Origin: Ehretia macrophylla
Taxonomy: Eukaryota; Streptophyta; Magnoliopsida; Boraginales; Ehretiaceae
Assembly: GCA_037974665.1 (NCBI GenBank)
Contig: CM075773.1
Coordinates: 50,391,417 to 50,455,416 of the forward strand
Direction: 5' to 3'
DNA length: 64,000 bases
Position numbers and translations under genes: made by a program. Position 1 is the stretch's first letter. Every line of letters starts with the position of its first letter. Below are positions 4,078 to 51,165 of this stretch, piece after piece. The notes beneath the pieces were generated by a model. The model ran no database searches. It saw only the letters and a program-made list of their open reading frames with translations, and was not told the origin of the DNA.

Positions 4078-6505
4078 ATTCAAAGATAGGAGATACATGT
4101 ATCTTTTAAAATGTTCGATCTTTGTTAAATAGTACTTAATGTCATATTTTTTAAAAAATTAAATGCTTCCTTTATTTGATTTCTTTAGTAATGGTAAATT
4201 ACTTAGAGTAATTACATATTATAGTTTCTAAATAATGTGATTAGAAAGTTGAATAGATTAGTAAATTACTTAAAGTAACTACATATTATTATCACACCCG
4301 TGCATCGGACGGGACAAAGCTTGTTAATTTAAAGAGGATACCATGAAGGAGAAAAGTGTTTTCTATATTTCACAATGATACCCATATACAGTATTTATAA
4401 TACACTTTAGATGAGCACTATAACTAACGATAAGGATTACAACAAATCAAATTTAAAATACAACAACTTAATCTAAAGATAAATCAATCCTGATAGCTAC
4501 GTTATCAGTTATACTGTATATATATAGTTAAATATTTTTCCCTATCAAACTATTTTCTTCAAACAAATGGACCCTTCGTCATGGAATATACGTACGCAAG
4601 GAAACTTGGTACGCATGTATACATATAAGACTTCCTGCCATTCGTATAATAATATTTTGTGGAGTAGATTACATTTATGCTCTTAATATTTCAAATCTTG
4701 AATTCTACTTCTTCTTTACATATATTTGAGATAGCAATTTAACCCCTTTCTGAGGTTTATTTTTCTCTTTATTGAGTGTATTTTTCTCTTTGGTTCATAA
4801 ACTTCAAAATAATTTCCCATGGCATTTGCTATATATATGTGTGTGTGTGTATTCCTTTCGCAAAAGCAAACTCTTTCTGATCTTTCATCAAAGTTGTTTA
4901 ATAAATATGCAGAACAATATATTCTTGTGCCAAATCATTTTTGTAGTTTGCAATTATAAGAATACTTTGTGTAAGAACAACTAGAGAAGCGCTTTCTAGC
5001 GGAAGATTGTTAAAACTTCAGACAAGGTATTATATTCCTTTCACCCTCATTGACTTTTCTTCTATGCAAGCCAACATTACATTCATAAATATAATAATGA
5101 TTTACAACAAATTTCAAATATACCAAACCATTATCGACTATTTTTGCATATCTTGTTTTCTGAAAGTTGAAATCGTAGTAAAATAAGAAGTTTAATTATA
5201 TATTTTTATTAAAAAGGGTATATCAACTCAGAGGTGACATTGTTTTTATCTTCTTTGTGAAAAAAGTAAATGTGCAAGTGCCCCACTTAAAACTTGAAGT
5301 GCAGTCAGCGGCGGATTTCTGGTAAATAGGTACAGTCCTAACGAAGAAATTTTTTTGAATCCGCCTCTGAGTACAGTCCTGTTATTAGTTCACCATTTTT
5401 TAGTAAATAGGTGCCAATTCACTATTTGTAACGAACTGATTAATGTATACATATGAGTAAGCCCCGGTATACATGTTATGGAGGTTGTATATGCAATGGC
5501 GATGCATATTAGGGTTAGTGGGAGTTGCAGAAATTAAATAAAAAACTTAAATATATCTATTTATTTTTAATTAAAAAAAATTAATTAGTCCTACTGAAAA
5601 AATTATGTAGTTTTAAAAAGAATAGATATCTATATATTTTTAGTTAAGAAACTAATTAATCCCACTAATATATATACTGACATATTCGGAAAATCATGTG
5701 TTTTTTAAGCTGCTACTAAGACGAATTAATGAATCTGCACATTACATTAAGAAATATGATTTATATGCTAACCAAAGATCTCCAATTGCTTAAAACTTTT
5801 TTCTTAATGTATCTCATAATGAAATTTCTCTATATATGGACTTCGAGTATTTTTTAGCAAAACCATTATAAATCTACATCAACTCGATATATAGCAAATG
5901 TAATTGAACATGCTAAATATCACTTTCCCATTCTAAGAATTGGGTTCAAGCTTTTATATACCTACCTAGCTTGATTGAACAAATTAAATTGAAGCACATC
6001 TTCCAAAATTATAATAGCAAGTCTTGAAGATGAGTTCCTCCACCCTCAAAATAAGTAATCAACACGTATTATTTGGAAATAAAGAAACAAAATTATAAAG
6101 AACCTAAAACTTTTCTAAGCGGAGAGAAAAGGTGCCTTAAACTTACTCTGATATCGATGATAATCAAGATCTCCATCCCCATATTTTTTTATCAACTATG
6201 TTTCTCATTGATTCCCTCGTGGAAATCTAGCAATTGGTAGCATAAAGTATAAATCCAAGTGAATTAAAGAAATTTACAGAAAAACCGAATTCAATTCCCA
6301 AATGCAAATCAAGTACATAACCATGCATATTCCACAGATTATTATCTCATCGAACCATACAAGCGATACTACACGCCTTGCTGCCACGATCCCTTTGTCG
6401 CTCCAATCCGTCAAACATGAAATACGGTGCATGAACAACCCCCAAAACACACACATACGTACACACACAACACACAAGACAGGGTACAAGCATAATTATT
6501 ATAAA
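4078..6505. other. Intergenic, no gene seen
   Basis: AT-rich DNA between the LTR and the NF-YB gene. Apart from a very small hAT-type element at 5306-5369 and a short TG microsatellite near 4838, I see no coding or structured feature. The part next to 6505 is the 3' flank of the NF-YB gene. Confidence 0.5.
5306..5369. mobile_element. Very small hAT-type MITE (64 bp)
   Basis: The segment begins CAGCGGCGGATT and ends AATCCGCCTCTG, which are imperfect inverted repeats of the plant hAT terminal type. It is flanked by AGTGCAGT (5298-5305) and AGTACAGT (5370-5377), an 8-base target duplication with one mismatch, the length typical of hAT elements. Only about 40 bases separate the two ends, so it is an extreme deletion derivative. 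Confidence 0.65.
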
Positions 6506-7021
6506 TTATTTTGTATTGTTTCTTAAATATTCCGGCAGTGCAAATCTCCTTGGGAAAGAGTTGTTATCCTGATCGTCAAAACCCTTACGGCTTGGTGGTT
6601 CGTCCCTTCCTTCGACATACTTGTTGACAACTCCCGGGTCGTTCGACTTTCTGTATCTCTGCATATACCTTTGCAGCGTCTCAGCATAGTTATCAAACCC
6701 TAGACTTTCAAGAGCCCAACATATATTGTCCGCGTTCACAATCCTCCGCTTCTCCTTCTCACATCTATCAGATGCCTCCCCAGTAACAAAGCAAATGAAC
6801 TCAGTCACACACTCTTGCATGGTTTGTTTCGCTTCTTTCGATATTTTCGCATTTGGTGGTAGGATTTTCTTCATTATCCTCCCAACATTAGCTATCGGCA
6901 GCAACCGATCTTGTTCTTTAATCAATTCAGCCTCCCCTGAAGAATTACTGCTACTAGCACTTCCATTATTGTGCCAGAGGTATTCTCTATTATTGAACAT
7001 GGAGCTTGTATTATCAACCAT
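6506..7021 (-). CDS. NF-YB: Nuclear transcription factor Y subunit B (NF-YB/HAP3)
   Basis: Encodes 171 residues in one exon, usual for plant NF-YB genes. The central histone-fold domain spans about residues 36-126 and includes the conserved blocks [47 protein letters not shown] and DICWAL-like [15 protein letters not shown] pairs with NF-YC through this fold, and the dimer recruits NF-YA to bind CCAAT boxes in promoters. The N-terminus is serine/asparagine-rich and the C-terminus is short and charged. The [17 protein letters not shown] block points to the non-LEC1 NF-YB4/NF-YB5 group rather than LEC1. The start is the first ATG after a TATA box 50 bases upstream. A CACTA transposon end begins only 158 bases upstream of the ATG, and the promoter plus first ~40 codons recur twice in the array beyond it. 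Family assignment is secure; the exact paralogue is not. Confidence 0.92.
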
Positions 7022-7070
7022 TTCCAGAAAGAGAAAGTAGACTAAGTGTTCCTTTTTTAGCTAAATTGCT

Positions 7071-7077
7071 CTTTATA
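7071..7077 (-). promoter_or_regulatory. TATA box of the NF-YB gene
   Basis: The minus strand reads TATAAAG 50 bases upstream of the ATG, giving a predicted transcription start near 7040-7048. The same box is preserved upstream of both partial copies of the gene at 8609-8730 and 10289-10410. Confidence 0.55.
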
Positions 7078-7179
7078 GACATAAGAAAGTACAAGTAGGT
7101 ATGTTTGCTTCATACCCCTTTACTCTAGAGAAATTGTGATTTAGACCCTTCACTCTTCTAAAAATAAACCAGAAACCCT

Positions 7180-8608
7180 CACTACAAGAGAAAAGGCCTG
7201 TGGCTACGGACCGATTCCATAGCCATGGCGTCGCGACATTGGGACGGGCTACGGAATTCCGTAGCCATTTCGTCTGTCAGTAACGGCCCCATAGCCAAGT
7301 TGAAATTTCGTAGCTAATCTGTAGTCAAATCCATAAATTAATTTGTATTTTTTTTTTACGTCCGTAGCCATTCCGTCTCCAATTAATTTTTTCACACTTT
7401 TATTAATTATTAAAGTCTGTAGCAAATCCGTAGCCAACTTGGTCGTAAATGTTCCGTTGCCACATATCTATAGCCAATCCGTAGTCATTCGAGAGCCACG
7501 TATCCGTAGCCAATACAAGGTTCATAGCCAATCCATAGCGTTTTTGTAGCCACATATCCATAGCCTTTTGGTCGCCACGTATTCATAGTTAATCCGTAGC
7601 CAATTAATTATTTAATTTTAAAAAATTATAAAATTATAAAGTTAAAAGATAAAAGATAAAAAATTAAAATTAAATATACTAATTAAAATTACAAAAAATA
7701 ATAATATTTACAGTAAAGTTAAATTATTTACAAAAGATCTCAAATTCTATACAAACAAAATATTTTAAATTTACAAAAAAACCTAAACTGATCTACTATT
7801 GTCTTCTAATCATCTTGCTCATGTAATTTCATTGCCTGCAAAGCTTTCCTTTTATCTTTCAATACTTTTTCATACTCTTAATTCCAAAGTCATCTCCTAT
7901 TGCACCAATAGACAAATATGCAATAAATAACAACAATAAACTGGAGATGCTTCCCTACCAATGCGAACTCCGTGCGAGCCGAATCCATTAACCAATTATC
8001 AGTATTGAACTACAAACATGGTGCATACTTAAAAACATACAAGCATGGTGCATACTTAAAAACATAAGTAAACACATGATTCCATTATTTCAATTCTAAC
8101 TTAGCATGACTCTATTATTTCAATCTATATTAGCACATAACTCCATTATTTTCACATATTTAATGCTAAAAGGAAATGAAACTATGGAGGAAAGCTACAA
8201 AATAACATATTCAATTCACAAAATATAACAAAAGAATAGCACCACCAACCAAATAACATTTCATATTCACTACATCGGCATTAACATATACATATTATCG
8301 GTATTAGCATATATATATTGAACTATAAGTATGGTACATACTTAAAAAAATATAAACTAGCACATGACTCCATTATTTCAATTTTAAATTAGCACATGAC
8401 TATTATTTCAATTCTAAATTAACACATTACTCCATTATTTCAATTCTAAATTACCACATGACTCCATTGTTTCACATATTCAACACTAAAAAGAAATGAA
8501 ACTATGGATTGAGAAACTACGTAATAACATATTCAATCTCGCAATATGCATATTCAATGATCATAATATAACAAAAGAATAACACTACCAACCAAATAAC
8601 ATTTCATA
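7180..8608 (+). mobile_element. CACTA (En/Spm) transposon left-end fragment, copy 1
   Basis: Begins CACTACAAGAGAAAAGG, the canonical plant CACTA terminus, followed to about 7605 by dense subterminal repeats of a GTAGCCA core, many in the form AATCCGTAGCCAA or close to it, which is the arrangement that binds CACTA transposases. The rest is AT-rich with no transposase reading frame, and has internal repeats of motifs such as CCATTATTTCAATTCTAA. No matching right terminus ending in TTGTAGTG is present; the fragment instead runs directly into a partial NF-YB copy. It is therefore a truncated, non-autonomous element. Confidence 0.8.
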
Positions 8609-8730
8609 TTCAACCAATCTTGTGCTTTAATGAACTCAGTCTTCCCTGAAGAAGTACTGCTACTAGCATTTCCATAATTGTACCAAACATATTCTCCATT
8701 ATTGAACGTGGAGCTTGTATTATCAACCAT
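8609..8730 (-). pseudogene. NF-YB 5' fragment, copy 2
   Basis: Carries the start codon (8728-8730) and about 40 codons matching the N-terminus of the NF-YB at 6506-7021, with substitutions (for example EYVWYNYGNASSS where the gene has [13 protein letters not shown]). Homology stops at the segment corresponding to DRLL at the start of the histone fold, and the frame runs on into CACTA sequence for roughly 20 codons before a stop. The promoter copy, including TATA, extends upstream to 8884. It cannot make a working NF-YB because the histone fold is absent. Confidence 0.8.
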
Positions 8731-8884
8731 TTCCAGAAAAAGAAATCAGACTAAGTGTTCCTTTTTTAGCTAAATTGCTCTTTATAGACATAAGAAAGAG
8801 GTAGGTATGTTTGTTCATACCCCTTTACTCTAGAGAAATTATGATTTAGACCCGTCACTCTTCTAAAAATAAACCAAAAACCCT

Positions 8885-10288
8885 CACTACAAGAGAAAAG
8901 GCCTGTGGCTACGGACCGATTCCATAGCCATGGCGTCACGACATTGGGACGGGCTACGGAATTCCGTAGCCATTTTGTCCGTCGGTAACGGTCCCATAGC
9001 CAAATTGAAATTTCGTAGCCAATCCGTAGTCAAATCCAGAAATTAATTTGTATTTTTTTTTTACGTCCGTAGCCATTCCATCTCCAATTAATTTTTTCAC
9101 ACTTTTATTAATTATTAACGTCCGTAGCAAATCCGTAGCCAACTTGGTCGTAAATGTTCCATAGCCACGTATCTGTAGCCAATCCGTAGCCGTTCGAGAG
9201 CCATGTATCCGTAGTCGTTCGGTAGCCACGTATTCGTAGCCAATACAAGGTTCATAGCCAATCCACAGCGTTTTTGTAGCCACATATCCATAGCCTTTTG
9301 ATCGCCATGTATTCATAGTTAATCCATAGCCAATTAATTATTTAATTTAAAAAATATAAAAAAATAAAAAAATTATAAAATTAAAAGATAAAACAAAAAA
9401 AATTAAAATTAAATAAACTAATTAAAATTACAAAAAATAAATAATATTTACAATAAAGTTAAATTATTTACAAAAGATCTCAAATTATGAAACAACAAAA
9501 TATTTTTAATTTACAAAAAAACCTAAACTGATCTATTATTGTCTTCTAATGATCATCTTGCTCATGTGATTTCATTGCCTGCAAAGCTTTCCTTTTATCT
9601 TTTAATACTTTTTCATACTCTTAATTCCAAAGTCATCTCCTATTGCACCAATAGACAAATATGCAATAAATAACAACAATAAACTGGAGGTGTTTCCCTA
9701 CCAATGCGAACTCCGTGCAAGTCGAATCCATTAACCAATTATCAGTATTGAATGATTCCATTATTTCAATTCTAACTTAGCATGACTCTATTATTTCAAT
9801 CTATATTAGCACATGACTCCATTGTTTTCACATATTTAATGCTAAAAGGAAAATGAAACTATGGATTGGAAAGCTACAATATACATATTCAATTCATAAA
9901 GTATAACAAAAGAATAGCACACCAACCAAATAACATTTCATATTCACTACATCGGCATTAACATATACATATTATCGGTATTAGCATATATATATATTGA
10001 ACTATAAGCATGGTACATACTTAAAAAACTTAAACTAGTACATGACTTCATTATTTCAATTTTAAATTAGCACATGGCTCTATTATTTCAATTCTAAATT
10101 AACACATTACTCCATTATTTCAATTCTAAATTACTACATGACTCCATTGTTTCACATATTCAACACTAAAAAGAAATGAAACTATGGATTGAGAAACTAC
10201 AAAATAACATATTCAATCTCGCAATATGCATATTCAATTATCATAATATAACAAAAGAATAACACTACCAACCAAATAACATTTCATA
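8885..10288 (+). mobile_element. CACTA transposon left-end fragment, copy 2
   Basis: A second copy of the fragment at 7180-8608 with the same CACTACAAGAGAAAAGG start, the same GTAGCCA subterminal repeats (to about 9335) and small insertions and deletions. It again ends without a right terminus, by joining a partial NF-YB copy at the same junction. Confidence 0.78.
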
Positions 10289-10410
10289 TTCAACCAATCT
10301 TGTGCTTTAATGAACTCAGCCTCCCCTGAAGAAGTACTGCTACTAGCAATTCCATAATTGTACCAAACGTATTCTCTATTATTGAACATGGAGCTTGTAT
10401 TATCAACCAT
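10289..10410 (-). pseudogene. NF-YB 5' fragment, copy 3
   Basis: A third copy of the NF-YB start codon (10408-10410) and first ~40 codons, with the promoter copy reaching 10566. Beyond 10566 the sequence continues as ordinary intergenic DNA rather than a CACTA end, so this copy marks the far edge of the array. The histone fold is absent. Confidence 0.78.
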
Positions 10411-10566
10411 TTCCAGAAAAAGAAATCAGACCAAGTGTTCCTTTTTTAGCTAAATTGATCTTTATAGACATAAGAAAGAGGTAGGTATGTTTGCTTCATA
10501 CCCCTTTACTCTAGAGAAATTGTGATTTAGACCTTTCCACTCTTCTAAAAATAAAACAGAAACCCT

Positions 10567-13500
10567 TTATGTCAACTTTTCAATGAAATTCACGCATTCT
10601 GCCCTTGGCATTAACTTGCTTTTTTTTTTTGCTCATCTCTATTATTTTTCTGTTTACCTTTTCATCTCCCTTACTTTATCTTTGGAAACATCCCATTCTA
10701 GTACTTGAAAAAATAGATAAGTCACAATAAAATGAATCCATGAGTTATTGGAAACATTTTCCTAAATCCTTGTAACTTTACAACATTAATTATTTTTAAC
10801 AGAAAAAAAAAGGTAGCGTGGTCATTTCATGCACTATTTTCGTATTTCTTCATTCTTTTCATTTTTCCCTCTTTCTTCCCCCTTCAATCTCTCTCACATA
10901 CATACAGGGAAGACACACAATCACACACACACACGATGCACAAACCCAACACACATAAAAAGTGACGGAGTCAGAGATTGGGGGTTTAGTGACAAAGTCA
11001 ATAACTAGAAGTTGAGGCACTCATTTATGCATAAATAATTTGTATAAATTATAAGAAAGAGTTGTTGACTTTATGCCTAGAATTAAGTTTTTAATTATGA
11101 CAAATCACAATATGCCATAACTAAACTAATTCTTAATTTAAGCACATTAATTATATAGAACAAATGAAGTCTTCAAGGCACGACTCTCCCTCCTATAATG
11201 CCATTTTATGGCAATTATAAAAGTGTAAGTACTAAAACATATATGGAGTTTTCAACACATAAGTCCCCTTAATATAGTAATGACTTAACATATGAAAGAG
11301 AAAAATAAATAACTATAGCCACTGTATATAGAAAAAGTCTCTTTCATTAGATGTAAAGAAAATCATTGTTAAAAATTGATTTTCGTTTAGAAAATTTATC
11401 AGCACCCTATTTATAATGAATTAGAAATCCAATTCAAAGTGAAATTAAAAAATTTCCATGCATAAAATATATAAATTAAAATAATAATTAGACATGAAAA
11501 TGAAAATAAATTGGACTACTGCACCACAAAGTATAATTACACGACCTTAGATAGCTCCAAAACTAATATGCACTGGTCAGATTGTAGAAGTTTGAGTCAA
11601 GAATTTGCCCTTTAAATTTCAGCTCTATTTGAAATCACCATCTAATTGTATGTTTGATGAATACTGCCCAGTTATTTCCTATATTTTTCTCTATTTTCTC
11701 TCATCTTCTCACTCTCTTTGATCACTCAATACAAGTATAGAACATATCATTCTCAATATGAGAAAACAAGAGAAAATAATTGAAAAGAATTGTCGGTCAA
11801 AAAGTAGAAATAAGGCACATTTTCTCACTTTTCCATCTCTTATCACTTTTATTTTCATCACTTATCATTGCTTCTGGGTCGGCACAGATGTTTAGTGGGT
11901 TGAGTTGGGTTGGGCTTATTTATTAGAATATAGGACCCAATTCAACCCACGAGCCCGCTATCACGAGTAGCGAGTTGGGCTAGACCAACTCATTTTTTTG
12001 TGATTAGTGTAATCTGAATATATAATTATACTAATACACAAACACCAATATATTACTTGGATAGTTAGATTAATAATTAAAAAAATAAATTTAAACTTAA
12101 TTTTTTTCAGAAAAGTTAATTTAACTATTAATGAGACAGTACATAAGTTAATTGATAACATTAACAATTAACATAAATGATAAAATAATACATAACAAAC
12201 TACCAATTAATGAGACACGAGTACATTAGTGATATAAATATAAAAATAAAATATTACATAAACGCTTAAGGAAAAGTAGTGCAAAAGTTCTCCATTTTGT
12301 TATGCTCCTTGTACAGGTACTAGGCCTGCTGGTGGTTGTGGTGTGCTTGGAGATGGCAGTGGTTGAATAACCACTTCAATATTAAAATAATTTGTGATAT
12401 TTGGGTGTTGAGATACATTATATAAGGTGTCTTACAAGCGTCTCAATTCTAAATTTACGTCAAAATATAAATTGATGTTGATAATATTTACAAATTACAT
12501 ACTCCTGTTATTCAAAGTACGTAAAATGATTTCAAACATCTGACGAATGTAATCGTCGTGAAAGATTTTCTTCTCTCATGGGTATAGTTATGTATAATAT
12601 TGTAGACTTGTCATAAAATAAAGTTGAATATACTTATTGACTAAAGCACTATGTCATTAAGTATTTATAGAAAAAATTATATGTATGATTATAAAAATTG
12701 TACCTAAAATCTTTTTAAAAAATAATATGAAGGGACTTAAAGTTACAAGTTGTAAACTTGCAATTTCACTAAAATGATTTGATAACAAGTCATTTAATAT
12801 CAACTTAACAAATAAATTTGCTACTTGTTATTATTAGTTTGTTAAAAAAAATAGCTACTACGACTTGCTAGTTTGTTTAAAAAAATAGTTATTATGACTT
12901 ACATTGCATGCATAATGTATAATATTTCTATTTATTTTAATAGGTGAGCTCAAATTGTACTTAATTTGTGTTGGGCCTGAGTTGGACTCAAGTTGGACCT
13001 TATTTAGGCTCGAGTTGGGTCTGTGCTGGGCTCATGGGCTGAGCTGGGATGGGTTTGGGTTTAAATAGGCCTGAGCTCAAATAGGCTAGGTAAAAAATTA
13101 TATGACCCACCTTGGCCTACTTATATGTGGTGGGTTAGGACTAGTCGAGTTTACTTTCAATCGAATTAGGCTAGATCCGTAATGGTCAGTTTTTAGTCAA
13201 CGCAAGCACAATGCCACCATAAGTACATGGCTATAACACATGCCCAGCCACACTTACACAATGTTAGATTGCAGAAGGGAAAACAAAGGAAAGTATAAGG
13301 TAGTGAAAAAATAACAAAGGAAATCAAAGGAAAAGGATTTCTTCGATTCGAATGGAGAAAACATAATATGGAAAAGGAAACAAAATAATTTTATAATTCT
13401 TTTTTCAAAGTTATGAAGTCCTTATCAACTTTTCTAAAAATTGACAAAACGATGATTTTACTTTTCTGTCTTATCTAATCAACTTTTCTCAAATGATTCA

Positions 13501-17831: not shown

Positions 17832-20800
17832 TCATACTTCTTCATACTCGTTGTCGTCGTCGTCGTCTCCATGCTTCCCTCCATGCTTGATGTTCTGGTA
17901 CCATCTGGCACAGGCAATGTAGACGAACAAATCTATTGCTGTCAAACCAGCTAACAGAAAGTAAAACCTGTCTAAATGGCCCTTGTTAAGGTTTCTTGGG
18001 ATCCATCCAGGCATGTTATCTTCGGAGGATATTTTCACAACCATGGTTACGATCAAGCTACTAACATAGTTCCCAAGCGATATAGATGTCATACATAGTG
18101 CACTTCCGAAACTCTTGAGTCCATCCGGCGCTTGTGCATTGAAGAATTCGAGTTGGCCTACATACATGAACACTTCTGAAGCTCCAATCAGGGCATATTG
18201 TGGGACTTGCCAGAAGATGCTCAATGAGCTTGAGCCATCGCAGTGAGTGCAATCTTTTTGAGCATATTTTAACCTGTAGCATTCCACAATTCCAGCTGAA
18301 ACCATAGCTATCACTGCTATAATAAGCCCGATCCCCATTCGCTGAAGCTCTGTGAGCCCCTTGGGGTCATTTTTCTTGATCCTGCTCACAAGTGGATCGA
18401 TAATGTGCCGGTAAAGGAATATGAAAACTGCTACACTGAGAATGTCAAAGCTTGACATGCTTGCTGGAGGGATTCTGAAGTTTGAAATGGTAGTTTTCAT
18501 GGCAGCACCTTGCTCGACAAACAGAGATGCCATCTGGGTGAAGACAACCGAGTAAATTATAGTGCACAGCCATATTGGCAGCAGCCTTAGTATGCATTTG
18601 ACCTCTTCAACTTGTGAAATGGGGCAAAGGCGCCATGGATCGCGATCAGTCTGCTTCTGGTCCTTAAAATCCCTTGATGTAACGAAAGCTGCTCTATCTA
18701 AGAATCTGCGACAAACATAAGATCCCAAGTTAGCATCAATAGGACATGTAGTTGGATCTACTTAGTCACGATATGGTTTGTACTTACGTGAAACCATGTG
18801 TGTGGAGCATCTTTCTACTGCCACCCATGGAGCCTTCTTTTACATCCACATCATACAAATTTTCTTCTCCTTGTGACATCTCTACCTTGCACTTCTTCGA
18901 TGATGCTACTATCACTTGGCCAAACCTTGAAAGAGGGTTGCCACTGGGCTTAAAATGCCGGTATCTCGCGGTGCCTCCAAGAAACAAGACTAATGCTGCA
19001 AATGCTGATGCAGTAGATGCCCAAAACCCAAGCGCCCACATTCCTTCGTCCTCAAAATAGCCCAATATGGTGTTGGAGAAAAGTGAACCAAGATTCAGAG
19101 CCAGGTAGAAATAGCTGAAGAATGCGACTTTTGAGTACCCCTCTTTTGGATGCTCTTCGTCAAACTGATCAGCCCCAAATGTAGCAATATTAGGTTGGTA
19201 TCCTCCGTTCCCTAGCGCAACCATGTAGATAGAAAGATAGAATAGACCAATCTGCCAGCTTGAATGCGATCCACATTGAGTTGTTTGATCCCCGCAGCCT
19301 CTAGGTCTGAGCAAGAAAAGTTGTGAAGAGAGTGATAGCGATACCAGACCCTGCAATGCAATGCCAATGGAGCAGTTAGACTCTATAAAGGGCAGCTCGA
19401 TGCACGAAAATCTCAGCAATAATTTGGCAAAAAAGGTTATGATACTTACAATGACAAAGATGACCTGAAAGATGGCACAAGTTTTGTATCGTCCCCAATA
19501 AGAGTCACTAAGGAATGCACCCACAAGAGAGAAGATGTAGACAGTTCCAGTCCATTTACTAACACTATTGGCAGCATCAGCATTGTTCTGCTGCAGGACC
19601 CTTGTGAGGAACAAAACCAGGTTCACTCCAACACCAAAGAACGCGAGAGTAGCCAGACCTTGATTCACTGGGTAATTCGATAATGTAACCACAATTATTC
19701 ATCAAACAGAGGAAATAGAAGACATTTGAGTATATTGTATTGAAATGTATGTTAAGATGATTTTGCTGAACAACGTTAAATTTCAACATGAATGGGAAAA
19801 AGAAGCTAAAGATGTGGTGTTGTGAGTAATTTTGTAATCCGTTGCCTTTTCACCCAGATATTGTGAAAGTGCTTTTATAGCTAACGTTTTTCCTTAACTT
19901 CGGGAGAATGGATGCCTTCTCTTGGAAGGGGTTCCAGTGAACCGGCCCGGGCGACAATTTACTAAAATTCTGAGGGGGAAGATAGAAATACTGATCTCTG
20001 ATGTAAGAGAAATTACGGCCACAGTTAACATTACTTATCAAGCTACAGATGCTATAGAAGCACAACAATTATCTTTCTGCCTCTACAATCAAATATAAAA
20101 CTACATGTGCAATCTCCACGAAACGAACCAAACCTTTTTTCATTAATGGCGTCGATTATATGGATTCAACGATACCACGCATTTATATTAAAGAGCCGTG
20201 CTAATTATAGGAGCTGTGCTTATGTGGACGAATCGAAGGAAATGTTTTTTTCCTTCCTTTCCACTAATATGGTGACAAGGTGACTGTCAGTGTCATTACC
20301 CAACTGATGGAACTGGACAAGACTTTAAGTTATGGCCTTAAACACCTCCTCTTACAGTGGCGTCCAAACTAGTGAACCAACTTAATCAAGAATAAAACAA
20401 CTGGTTTCTAGCTAGCATTTAATAATTGAAATAACTGTTGAATGAGGTGATTGATCGTAGTGGTCTTTTCCCAATTTGGAAAATACCTTAGTGGGACATT
20501 TATAAAAATAAATAACTTAAACTCCGAATTCTTTTAATTATTTAAAAACCCACTGTCGTTATTATAAACAAATTTTTTTTTTTTTCTAGAAACGATTATA
20601 TTAAAAATTTGGAAAAATTTTATGACCATAGTTTTCATGAATTAACCTAAGATATCGGTAAGTCTTTTGTCGAGCTAACAAGAAAGATCAAACAGATAAT
20701 ATATATGTCGTACTAGCCGAAAAAAATAGAATGATCTATTTATTATGTATATTGCATTTGTAAGGATGATCTGCATGTGCAGCATTAGAACCAATATTCA

Positions 20801-45388: not shown

Positions 45389-46405
45389 CTACCCATTAAA
45401 ATTCCCCACATACTGTGCTTGTTCTGTTGTGCCTTGCGCAAATGGATTTTCAACCTGACATTCTACACTATGATGTGGACCACAACAAAACTCGCACACC
45501 ACTGTCGCTTGGACAGCATTAGCAGTCATTTGATTATTTTGCAACTGTTTCGCGAGATTGTCAATTTTCGCTGTCAAGGCAGTTATGGCATCAATCTCAT
45601 GATTCCCAGCTGTCTTCTTTGGTGCGACTCTCTCACTTGACCACTGCTGGTGGTTCAAAACAATATCCTCTAGCAACGCATAAGCTTCATTTGTTGTCTT
45701 GTTCATTAAAGCTCCTCCTGCAGATGCATCTATCAAAGTTCTTGTGGAACTAATTAACTCATTGTAAAAATTATGAACTTGCATCCACCTGGGTACACCA
45801 TGATTAGGACACTTCCTCAGCAATGCCTTATACTTTTCCCACGCTTCACATAGAGTTTCTCCTTCATGTTGAGCAAAATTATTAATCTCTATGCGCAGCT
45901 TCGCTGTCTTTCCAGGTGGGAAGAATCTTGACAAAAACTTGTGCACCAAATCCTCCCAAGTTGTGATTGAATCTGAAGGCAACGAGTTCAACCATTCCTT
46001 AGCTTGATCCCTTAAAGAGAAAGGAAACAAGCGAAGGCGCAGAGCTTCATCAATGACTCCATTGTACTTAACAGTTCCGCAGACTTCTAGAAAATTCACA
46101 ATGTGTTGATTAGGATCTTCAGAAGGCAGTCCATGGAATTGAATATTCTGAATCAATTGTAGTGTCACTGTCTTCAAATCAAAATCATGCGCCTGAATCG
46201 CTGGCCTTCTAATCACAGGTTGAATTCCAGTGGGTGGTAATGCATACTCTCGCAGTGTTCTAGGCGGATTTTCCTGATTATTTCCTTCTTGTGCTACCAC
46301 AATGTCAATCATATTTCCTTGCAGATGATGGGTAGTTGTAGCCACTCTTTTCTCTTTTCTATTCTTCCGACAGGTTCGTTCTATCTCAGGATCGAAAGGT
46401 AACAA
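45389..46405 (-). pseudogene. Athila-type gag region
   Basis: 338 codons with the retrotransposon gag core at about residues 85-200 (PNQHIVNFLEVCGTVKYNGV, LRLRLFPFSLRDQAKEWLNS, FLSRFFPPGKTAKLRIEIN, LCEAWEKYKALLRKCPNHGV) and a C-terminal zinc-knuckle-like CEFCCGPHHSVEC. It terminates at an in-frame stop after NFNG, so it is no longer continuous with protease. The primer site is about 140 bases upstream, so the start is near the original one. Confidence 0.85.
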
Positions 46406-46547
46406 ATTACTACTTCCTGACTTTCACATGCACGTAAAGAAATATGTTCCTGAAACACACGTAACGAAAATAAGATAACAACATAAAACTAAATAAAATC
46501 CAAAGTAAGATCAAATCTATTTGGTATCGATATTAATAATTGCACAA

Positions 46548-49754: not shown

Positions 49755-51165
49755 GACATCCTCAATAGAATCTCTAAGGAGTCTTTAAATAGCAATAATT
49801 ATTGTTTTAGAGACTCCATTAATCAAAATTCATCACTAATTGGGGTCTCTAAAATACTATTTGATAGCTTTTGGCAAAATCATGACATCACTCAAGTTTT
49901 GAGTCTCTAAAATAATACTTAGTCTCTATTTTCTTTAACAAATTTGTTGAAGAAAATAGAGACTATACAAGAAGACAAAAATGAGTCTAAAAAAAAAATA
50001 ATGTCAGATTGTCTGACATCGTCAGATCTGAAAAAAAAAAGTACAAAAAAACGAGCACAAACAGCAACAAAAAAATTTAACAAACATAAAAAAAATTACA
50101 ATACAATTATTTTTTTCAACAAATAACAACAAAAAAAAAAGGTAAACACAGATCAGAAAAAAAAAAAACATAAAGTTTGTGTTGGTAGTTTCGCCAGTGG
50201 TGGGGTGGCAGCGGAAAAGAGGGGGGAGGGGTGGGATGGAGCGGAGAATAGGAGGGGGGAGGGGGGGCGCTGTTACGAGAAAGGGAAAAAAGGGTGAAGG
50301 GGGTGCGCTGCTGCGTGAAAGGAAAAAAAAAAAAAAAAAAAGGGAAGGGGGGCGCTGATGCGCTGCAGGGAAAAAATAGAAAGAAGAAGATGAGGGGGGG
50401 AGGTGGGGAGGGGGGGTGCTAAAGGGAAAGATATGGTATGGGGGGTGGGGGGTGGGGAGCTTTTATAGCTAGGGTTTTTAATTATATTTTTTAATTGAGT
50501 TTTTTAATATATTTAATTATGGTTTTGTATTTTATTTTTTAACGTTATTTTAGTTTAGGTTATTTTTTTATGTTTTTTTAGTTTAGGTTATTTTTTTAAT
50601 TATTTTTTTCAATTGAGTTTTTTAATATATTTAATTATGGTTTTGTATTTTATTTTTTATTGTTATTTTAGTTTAGTTTATTTTTTTATATTTTTTTAGT
50701 TTTAGTTATTTTTTTAATATATTTAATTAGGGTTTTGTATTTTATTTTTTTAGTTTAGTTTTTTAAAATATAGTTTTATTTATTAATTTTTATTATTATA
50801 TGTTTAAATAAAACAACCTAACTATCCTTTTTTCTTAATTTTTTAAATGTTATCTTTGTCGTAATTTATTTATTTTTTGGTTAAAATACTCGTTAAAAAA
50901 GTTGAGATAATTTAAATAATAATTAATTAAAAAAAGTAATATATGATAAAAAATAACACATAATTAAATTATTATGTAAAATTAAAATTAACACAATACA
51001 GAAACTCAATTTTATAAAGACCATCATCGAGAATATTTTTTTTATCTTAATCTTTAAATAAGTCTCTAAAATATTTTTTTCACCTTAATCTCTAAATAAA
51101 TCTCTAAAATTAATTTTGTTCTTTATATAAATCTCTAAAATAATGGCCTCCATTGAAGATAGTCT
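49755..51165. mobile_element. Candidate DNA transposon with TCTCTAAAAT subterminal repeats
   Basis: The left end has GGACATCCTCAATAG and the right end, inverted, GAGACTATCTTCAATGG. TCTCTAAAAT-like motifs repeat near both ends, in both orientations at the left end (about 49769-49970 and 51050-51140). Between them are a G-rich stretch (about 50205-50460) and T-rich tandem repeats. There is no transposase frame and I could not find a clean target duplication, so the family is open. Confidence 0.4.
50493..50760 (+). repeat. T-rich tandem repeat, about 3 units
   Basis: A unit containing TTTTTAATATATTTAATTA(T/G)GG, TTTTGTATTTTATTTTT and TTTTAGTTTAG(G/T)TTA recurs near 50501, 50618 and 50711, spacing about 118 then 93 bases. 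Confidence 0.8.

Follow-up and report, generated by a model that had tools for sequence, protein, structure and literature searches.

An NF-YB gene behind an array of its own start regions

In a 64,000-nucleotide stretch of the Ehretia macrophylla genome (the window; C10:50391417–50455416 of a host assembly with 1.58 Gb in 20 contigs), an NF-YB-like gene on the minus strand is preceded by an array in which copies of its own start region alternate with pieces of a CACTA (En/Spm) transposon. The gene is a single open reading frame (ORF) of 171 amino acids (6509–7021), with the CBF/NF-Y histone fold in an intact frame (PF00808, E=5e-24, 84.8 bits). Read on the plus strand, the array has the order c1-U1-c2-U2-c3, followed by the native upstream DNA, where c1, c2 and c3 are three copies of the start region (6902–7179, 8611–8884 and 10291–10566, all in the minus orientation) and U1 and U2 are two CACTA pieces (7180–8610 and 8885–10290, plus strand). 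The array is real. The two CACTA pieces differ at 58 of the 1361 aligned bases and by 12 indels, and the start regions differ at 22 of 274 (c1-c2), 18 of 275 (c1-c3) and 13 of 274 positions (c2-c3); because of this divergence (copies 4–8% apart overall, with many indels), an assembly artefact or stutter is ruled out as its source.

The copy that still belongs to the gene, c1, was delimited by alignment with the other copies and with an inverted paralogue of the gene, and consists of the first 40 codons, the leader and the proximal promoter, with a TATAAA box read from the sequence at 7072–7077; the CACTA end cuts it at 7179, 158 bases from the real ATG (7021). The partial copies c2 and c3, recognized by alignment and by their ORFs, both break off within codon 40, at one identical position (6902, base 120 counted from the A of the ATG), and both junctions between a CACTA piece and the following start region fall at the same base. 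The Pfam histone-fold match starts with the residue of codon 40 (number 41 in the 172-residue translation that carries one extra leading residue). Each partial copy retains a TATAAA box (8781–8786 in c2, 10461–10466 in c3) and an ATG (8730 and 10410, respectively) that opens a frame of 58 codons, 40 from NF-YB and 18 from the transposon. The original prediction, made from the sequence alone, described two units that each join a CACTA left end to the NF-YB start region and lack a right end, with a common junction just before the histone fold, a TATA box and a start codon in each partial copy, and a CACTA end 158 bases from the real start codon; sequence search, alignment and direct reading bear out this description throughout. 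A point beyond that account is that the third start region, c3, is joined to native upstream sequence.

This native sequence consists of a short promoter stretch directly upstream of the CACTA insertion point (10567–10601, minus strand) and a longer segment (10602–10986, minus strand) that now lies 3.4 kb further from the gene. Among the best 40 of 605 candidates in a genome search with 10567–11200, in which matches of 35 bp are invisible, there is no second copy of 10567–10984 or of the longer segment. Just upstream, 10987–11200 belongs to a dispersed repeat, of which at least 39 other genomic copies, 75–82% identical, are present among the same best 40 candidates.

Truncated CACTA elements and their complete relatives

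Both CACTA pieces begin with the terminus CACTACAAGA (at 7180 and 8885), U1 being further identified by its identity to related elements and U2 by its alignment to U1. Within the window, the right-end 10-mer TCTTGTAGTG has just three matches with at most one mismatch (24045, 32264 and 61116), and the right-end 8-mer TTGTAGTG has a single exact match (46157); none of these lies in or near the array. Because the array copies have no right terminus, U1 and U2 are fragments rather than complete members of the family.

A genome search with 6900–10566 gives at least 90 matches (the best 40 of 1275 candidates were scored), and 12 transposon-related regions (L011–L022) were fetched for comparison. Complete elements of 4147–4403 bp, with both termini and TAT duplications, are present in four of the 12 (L011, L012, L015 and L016, the right terminus of L015 having one mismatch); within the fetched stretches, L013 has only a left end and L014 only a right end, and L017–L022 were left out of the element delineation. 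The four complete elements have like flanks on both sides except for one base in L012, and L014 has the same right flank; since the flanks are nearly identical, the complete relatives probably go back to a single insertion that was multiplied as part of a larger duplicated unit. Coding capacity was examined in one of them, L011, which contains no stop-to-stop frame longer than 130 amino acids (introns not modelled) and is therefore probably non-autonomous.

Six of the fetched regions (L011–L016) match U1 over almost its full length, with BLAST identities of 81–85%, and its identity to the four complete elements is 89–90% over the ungapped columns of a joint alignment. The end of the U pieces corresponds to positions 1300–1349 of the complete elements, that is, the left third is retained and roughly the right two thirds are missing, and the cut falls within a block of internal repeats whose period is roughly 310–345 bp. 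At the junction of U1 and c2 (8608–8613), comparison of the element, array and gene sequences reveals a 3-bp microhomology: the element reads TTCAA/TACATCGGC (TTTAA/TACATCGGC in L012), the array TTCAA/CCAATCTTG and the gene, at the same point, AGCAA/CCGATCTTG, so that element and gene have CAA in common. In a six-sequence alignment, U1 and U2 differ at 61 sites, of which 26 are assigned to U1, 25 to U2 and 10 to neither; the two pieces have thus changed to about the same extent.

An inverted paralogue with an empty insertion site

A genome search with 6500–7179, which skips very common words, gives 11 matches, and all 11 candidates were scored. In this search, the promoter region occurs at four places only, all on contig C10, namely the gene, c2, c3 and an inverted NF-YB copy; of the remaining seven matches, six cover coding sequence only and one covers coding sequence with 16 bp of the leader. 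The inverted copy (C10:50344248–50344872) is 94% identical to the gene and lies ~54 kb from it, ATG to ATG; its ORF has 146 amino acids and a frame-shifted tail. It aligns with window positions 4901–5277, 6235–7179 and 10291–10601, the last of these, c3 plus 35 further bases, in one piece. Over the 35 bases (10567–10601), 32 are identical, and past 10601 no likeness is found between the inverted copy and the upstream sequence of the window. Downstream of the gene, a 957-bp segment (5278–6234) is missing from the inverted copy; it has no clear terminal inverted repeats at the offsets tried.

Across the CACTA insertion point, the inverted copy and the c3/upstream joint both read AAACCCTTTATGTCAAC. 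Because the inverted copy has the same continuous sequence over this point, the c3/upstream arrangement is taken as ancestral and the inverted copy as the empty site. Relative to the inverted copy, there is no excision footprint at the c3/upstream joint.

Other sources of the partial copies were considered. The inverted paralogue differs from c3 at 19 of 275 positions, about as far as c1 does (18 of 275), and is rejected as the source of c3, which sits at the gene's own locus, joined to its own upstream DNA. Another NF-YB gene as the donor of c2 and c3 is rejected as well: among the seven remaining matches of the search with 6500–7179, the proteins of the four that were fetched (L027–L030) are only 60.7–64.8% identical to that of the gene, and the other three cover coding sequence only.

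Order of events

With the inverted paralogue as the fourth sequence, c2 and c3 share eight substitutions, c1 and c2 share one, and c1 and c3 none. Private changes comprise five substitutions and a 3-bp insertion in c1, eight and one indel in c2, three and one insertion in c3, and seven and a 2-bp insertion in the inverted copy; one further site is more complex. Two of the eight changes common to c2 and c3 hit the E and the R of the KEQDR motif; since both residues are invariant in 14 of the 14 aligned proteins, at least these two changes arose in the c2/c3 line. Since c2 and c3 share eight substitutions that are absent from both c1 and the paralogue, a history in two steps is favoured, with the founding duplication first and the second unit added later.

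The positions of these sites are suggestive, too. All eight c2-c3 sites lie at or to the left of 7037, and the sole c1-c2 site lies at 7169, adjacent to the CACTA end; this is the pattern predicted for a hybrid c2, with its left part from c3 and its right part from c1, produced by a crossover between mispaired c1 and c3. When the start regions are split at 7094/7095, a boundary set after the alignment had been seen, which counts against the comparison, the left parts differ at 19 of 190 (c1-c2) and 16 of 190 positions (c1-c3), that is, by 8–10%, and a second class of ~4% comprises c2-c3 on the left (8 of 190), c1-c2 on the right (3 of 84) and U1-U2 (58 of 1361). These divergences fit two dates. 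A plant substitution rate near 7e-9 per site per year would place the two dates, very roughly and to an order of magnitude only, at ~6–7 and ~3 million years.

Besides the choice of boundary, several points weigh against this reconstruction. Although the chance of finding all eight sites that far to the left is 0.003 with the outgroup, which favours the hybrid, this statistic assumes uniform mutation and uniform placement and was chosen after the alignment had been seen, and a permutation test without the outgroup gives a weak p=0.043. The right part of c3 differs from that of c1 at only 2 of 85 positions, fewer than the hybrid model predicts, and from that of c2 at 5 of 84. The hybrid nature of c2 involves few sites, with one c1-c2 shared site among them, and gene conversion could produce the same pattern. 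Six of the eight c2-c3 sites are unrooted, and a diverged element-free allele could place part of them before the founding join. Finally, the loss of the right end leaves no target duplication to compare for this particular insertion.

A likely mechanism and its competitors

Overall, the likely history is one of CACTA insertion, a founding join to an element-free copy of the locus and a later unequal crossover. First, a CACTA element would have landed between CCCT and TTATG, 158 bp in front of the NF-YB start codon. The DNA would subsequently have broken or stalled within the internal repeats of the element, and the end would have been joined, via 3 bp common to both, to codon 40 of a second, element-free copy of the locus, on the homologue or the sister. 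The founding product would have been gene-c1-U-c3-upstream, with one copy of the start region on either side of a truncated element. Some time afterwards, the direct repeats c1 and c3 would have mispaired, and an unequal crossover would have added a unit, giving c1-U1-c2-U2-c3, the parts of which would have drifted since then without visible selection. The join of a CACTA-bearing with a CACTA-free copy of the locus would explain the founding in one step and appears to be the simplest solution. Amplification was probably by unequal crossing-over, which is expected once direct repeats exist and for which the site patterns provide modest support.

The original prediction had put forward, as one model, abortive gap repair followed by tandem duplication. 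Under this scenario, the CACTA element would have been excised, and repair from the left break end would have copied ~1.4 kb of the element from the sister before a template switch to codon 40; the gap would have been closed once the start region had been copied as well, and the tandem duplication would have come later. A one-ended truncated element with a 3-bp microhomology at the switch point is compatible with such repair, and for DNA transposons of animals, template switching during gap filling has been described (PMC8277862). However, gap repair alone yields c1-U-upstream, without a second start region, and an extra switch is needed to obtain c3. Excised transposons would often leave a footprint at the donor site, whereas the c3/upstream joint matches the inverted copy without one. 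Taken as a whole, this scenario seems unlikely: the part of the proposal that the site patterns support is a founding rearrangement with subsequent tandem amplification, and gap repair itself, possible for the founding step, is not the simplest account of it. A single repair event with two template switches that built both units at once would account for the identical junctions, given that a repeated switch could recur at the microhomology, but c2 and c3 have eight substitutions in common that are absent from c1 and the paralogue, two of which affect otherwise invariant residues, and this points to a joint history of these copies after the split from c1. An origin in one event would then require a diverged allele as the template or later gene conversion that equalized c2 and c3, and is quite improbable.

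Still slightly less credible are two scenarios in which the start region travelled with the transposon. Under gene-fragment capture (Pack-CACTA), the second model of the original prediction, a mobile element that had acquired the NF-YB start region would have inserted beside the gene, and the start-region fragments do sit between CACTA sequences. Nevertheless, in the own-genome search, none of the four places that carry the promoter region is in a dispersed element; the array has no right terminus, and a unit without a right end could not move; and c3 runs on into native upstream DNA as it does in the inverted copy. These observations leave capture with hardly any probability. The same very low standing applies to an extrachromosomal circle, composed of the start region and a CACTA piece, that integrated into the gene by homologous recombination. 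It would predict the same hybrid pattern among c1, c2 and c3 as unequal crossing-over, but takes more steps, has no independent sign in its favour and itself needs a founding join. The insertion, founding join and unequal crossover described above thus stay the preferred history.

Selection and possible function

Proteins encoded in the window match those of flowering plants; among the 120 matches listed for the NF-YB protein, none is above 81% local identity, and the high score of the match from Anisodus is due to a doubled domain. Comparison of the gene with its inverted paralogue gives 2 synonymous and 7 non-synonymous changes in the fold (dN/dS 0.89, from small counts) and a dN/dS of 0.47 when the full protein-guided alignment, with the frame-shifted tail of the paralogue, is taken into account. 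For the gene and its relative on contig C17, dN/dS is 0.13 in the fold and 0.26 overall. Of the nine fold codons that differ between the gene and the inverted copy, three are assigned to the gene (all non-synonymous), four to the copy (two synonymous and two non-synonymous) and two to neither. As readings of these data, a loosening of constraint once the gene had been parted from its native upstream DNA and new regulation of the gene are equally plausible.

Over 39 codons, c2 and c3 differ by one synonymous and five non-synonymous changes, which is near the neutral expectation; selection on the 58-codon chimeric frames is accordingly unsupported, and c2 and c3 look like neutral debris. Short chimeric transcripts and a changed regulation of the gene, both raised by the original prediction, stay conjectural. 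A speculative alternative, to which we assign a low probability, is that the promoter/CACTA repeats form a silencing platform with variable copy number, whose partial promoters and CACTA ends would yield transcripts or small RNAs that act on the one remaining promoter of the gene. The idea derives from paramutable maize loci, where promoter-proximal CACTA fragments and tandem repeats have been implicated; if it were true, the NF-YB gene would have come under epigenetic control and would now be drifting.

Other features of the window

Elsewhere in the window, a gene for an NRT1/PTR FAMILY 7.3-like transporter is located at 17832–19698 on the minus strand, with best matches of 81–82% in Nyssa and Davidia. 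An Rfam match to the plant small nucleolar RNA snoR71 (45795–45901, plus strand; 45.2 bits, cutoff 40) lies on the opposite strand of a long open frame (45389–46423) that, judged by eye, we take to be gag-like. At 50475–50724, there is an AT-rich tandem repeat with a 118-bp period (2.1 copies, 93%).

Significance and comparison with known systems

The locus is new but its kind is known: a transposon-associated promoter duplication with later tandem growth. No published report of this arrangement was found among the titles and abstract openings listed, in a search that left subscription literature largely outside. The record of the rearrangement is unusually complete, and because the empty site, complete relatives of the element, a microhomology junction and shared intermediate substitutions all sit in one genome, the order of events is largely readable. 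The locus also allows a distinction between capture, gap repair and unequal exchange, three models that are otherwise difficult to discriminate. Should the array influence the gene, it would offer a natural experiment on how promoter repeats act in cis; otherwise, it amounts to harmless debris next to a gene that is perhaps decaying as well.

The closest parallel found is the maize p locus, where a tandem duplication has a truncated Mule, near the transcription start, at its putative recombination site; one possibility proposed by the authors is that Mule excision broke the DNA and that repair made the duplication, and the array was later enlarged by unequal crossover (PMC2686159). As here, a truncated DNA transposon is found at a duplication near a promoter, but at maize p whole genes are duplicated and the element is Mutator-like, whereas the repeated part of the present locus consists of just the promoter and 40 codons and the element is a CACTA. 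Maize Pl1-Rhoades has a promoter-proximal fragment of the CACTA element doppia and also a tandem repeat at the locus (PMC11166354). The two loci are alike in that a CACTA fragment is directly upstream of a regulatory gene; for Pl1-Rhoades, however, there are expression, small-RNA and methylation data, and its distal repeats do not alternate with CACTA sequences, in contrast to the array described here, which does alternate and is known from sequence alone. Pack-CACTA and Tgm-Express elements exemplify gene capture, with closely spaced elements that carry terminal deletions as proposed intermediates (PMC8903248, PMC13317346; also PMC1947982), and they have in common with this locus the joining of CACTA sequence to host gene fragments; unlike them, the array contains no two-ended mobile unit, and the own-genome search finds no copy of the fragment off its contig. 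In animal gap filling and FoSTeST, a template switch joins a broken DNA transposon to copied neighbouring DNA (PMC8277862), whereas at the NF-YB locus it is the flank of the element itself that was copied, and homologous amplification would have followed later.

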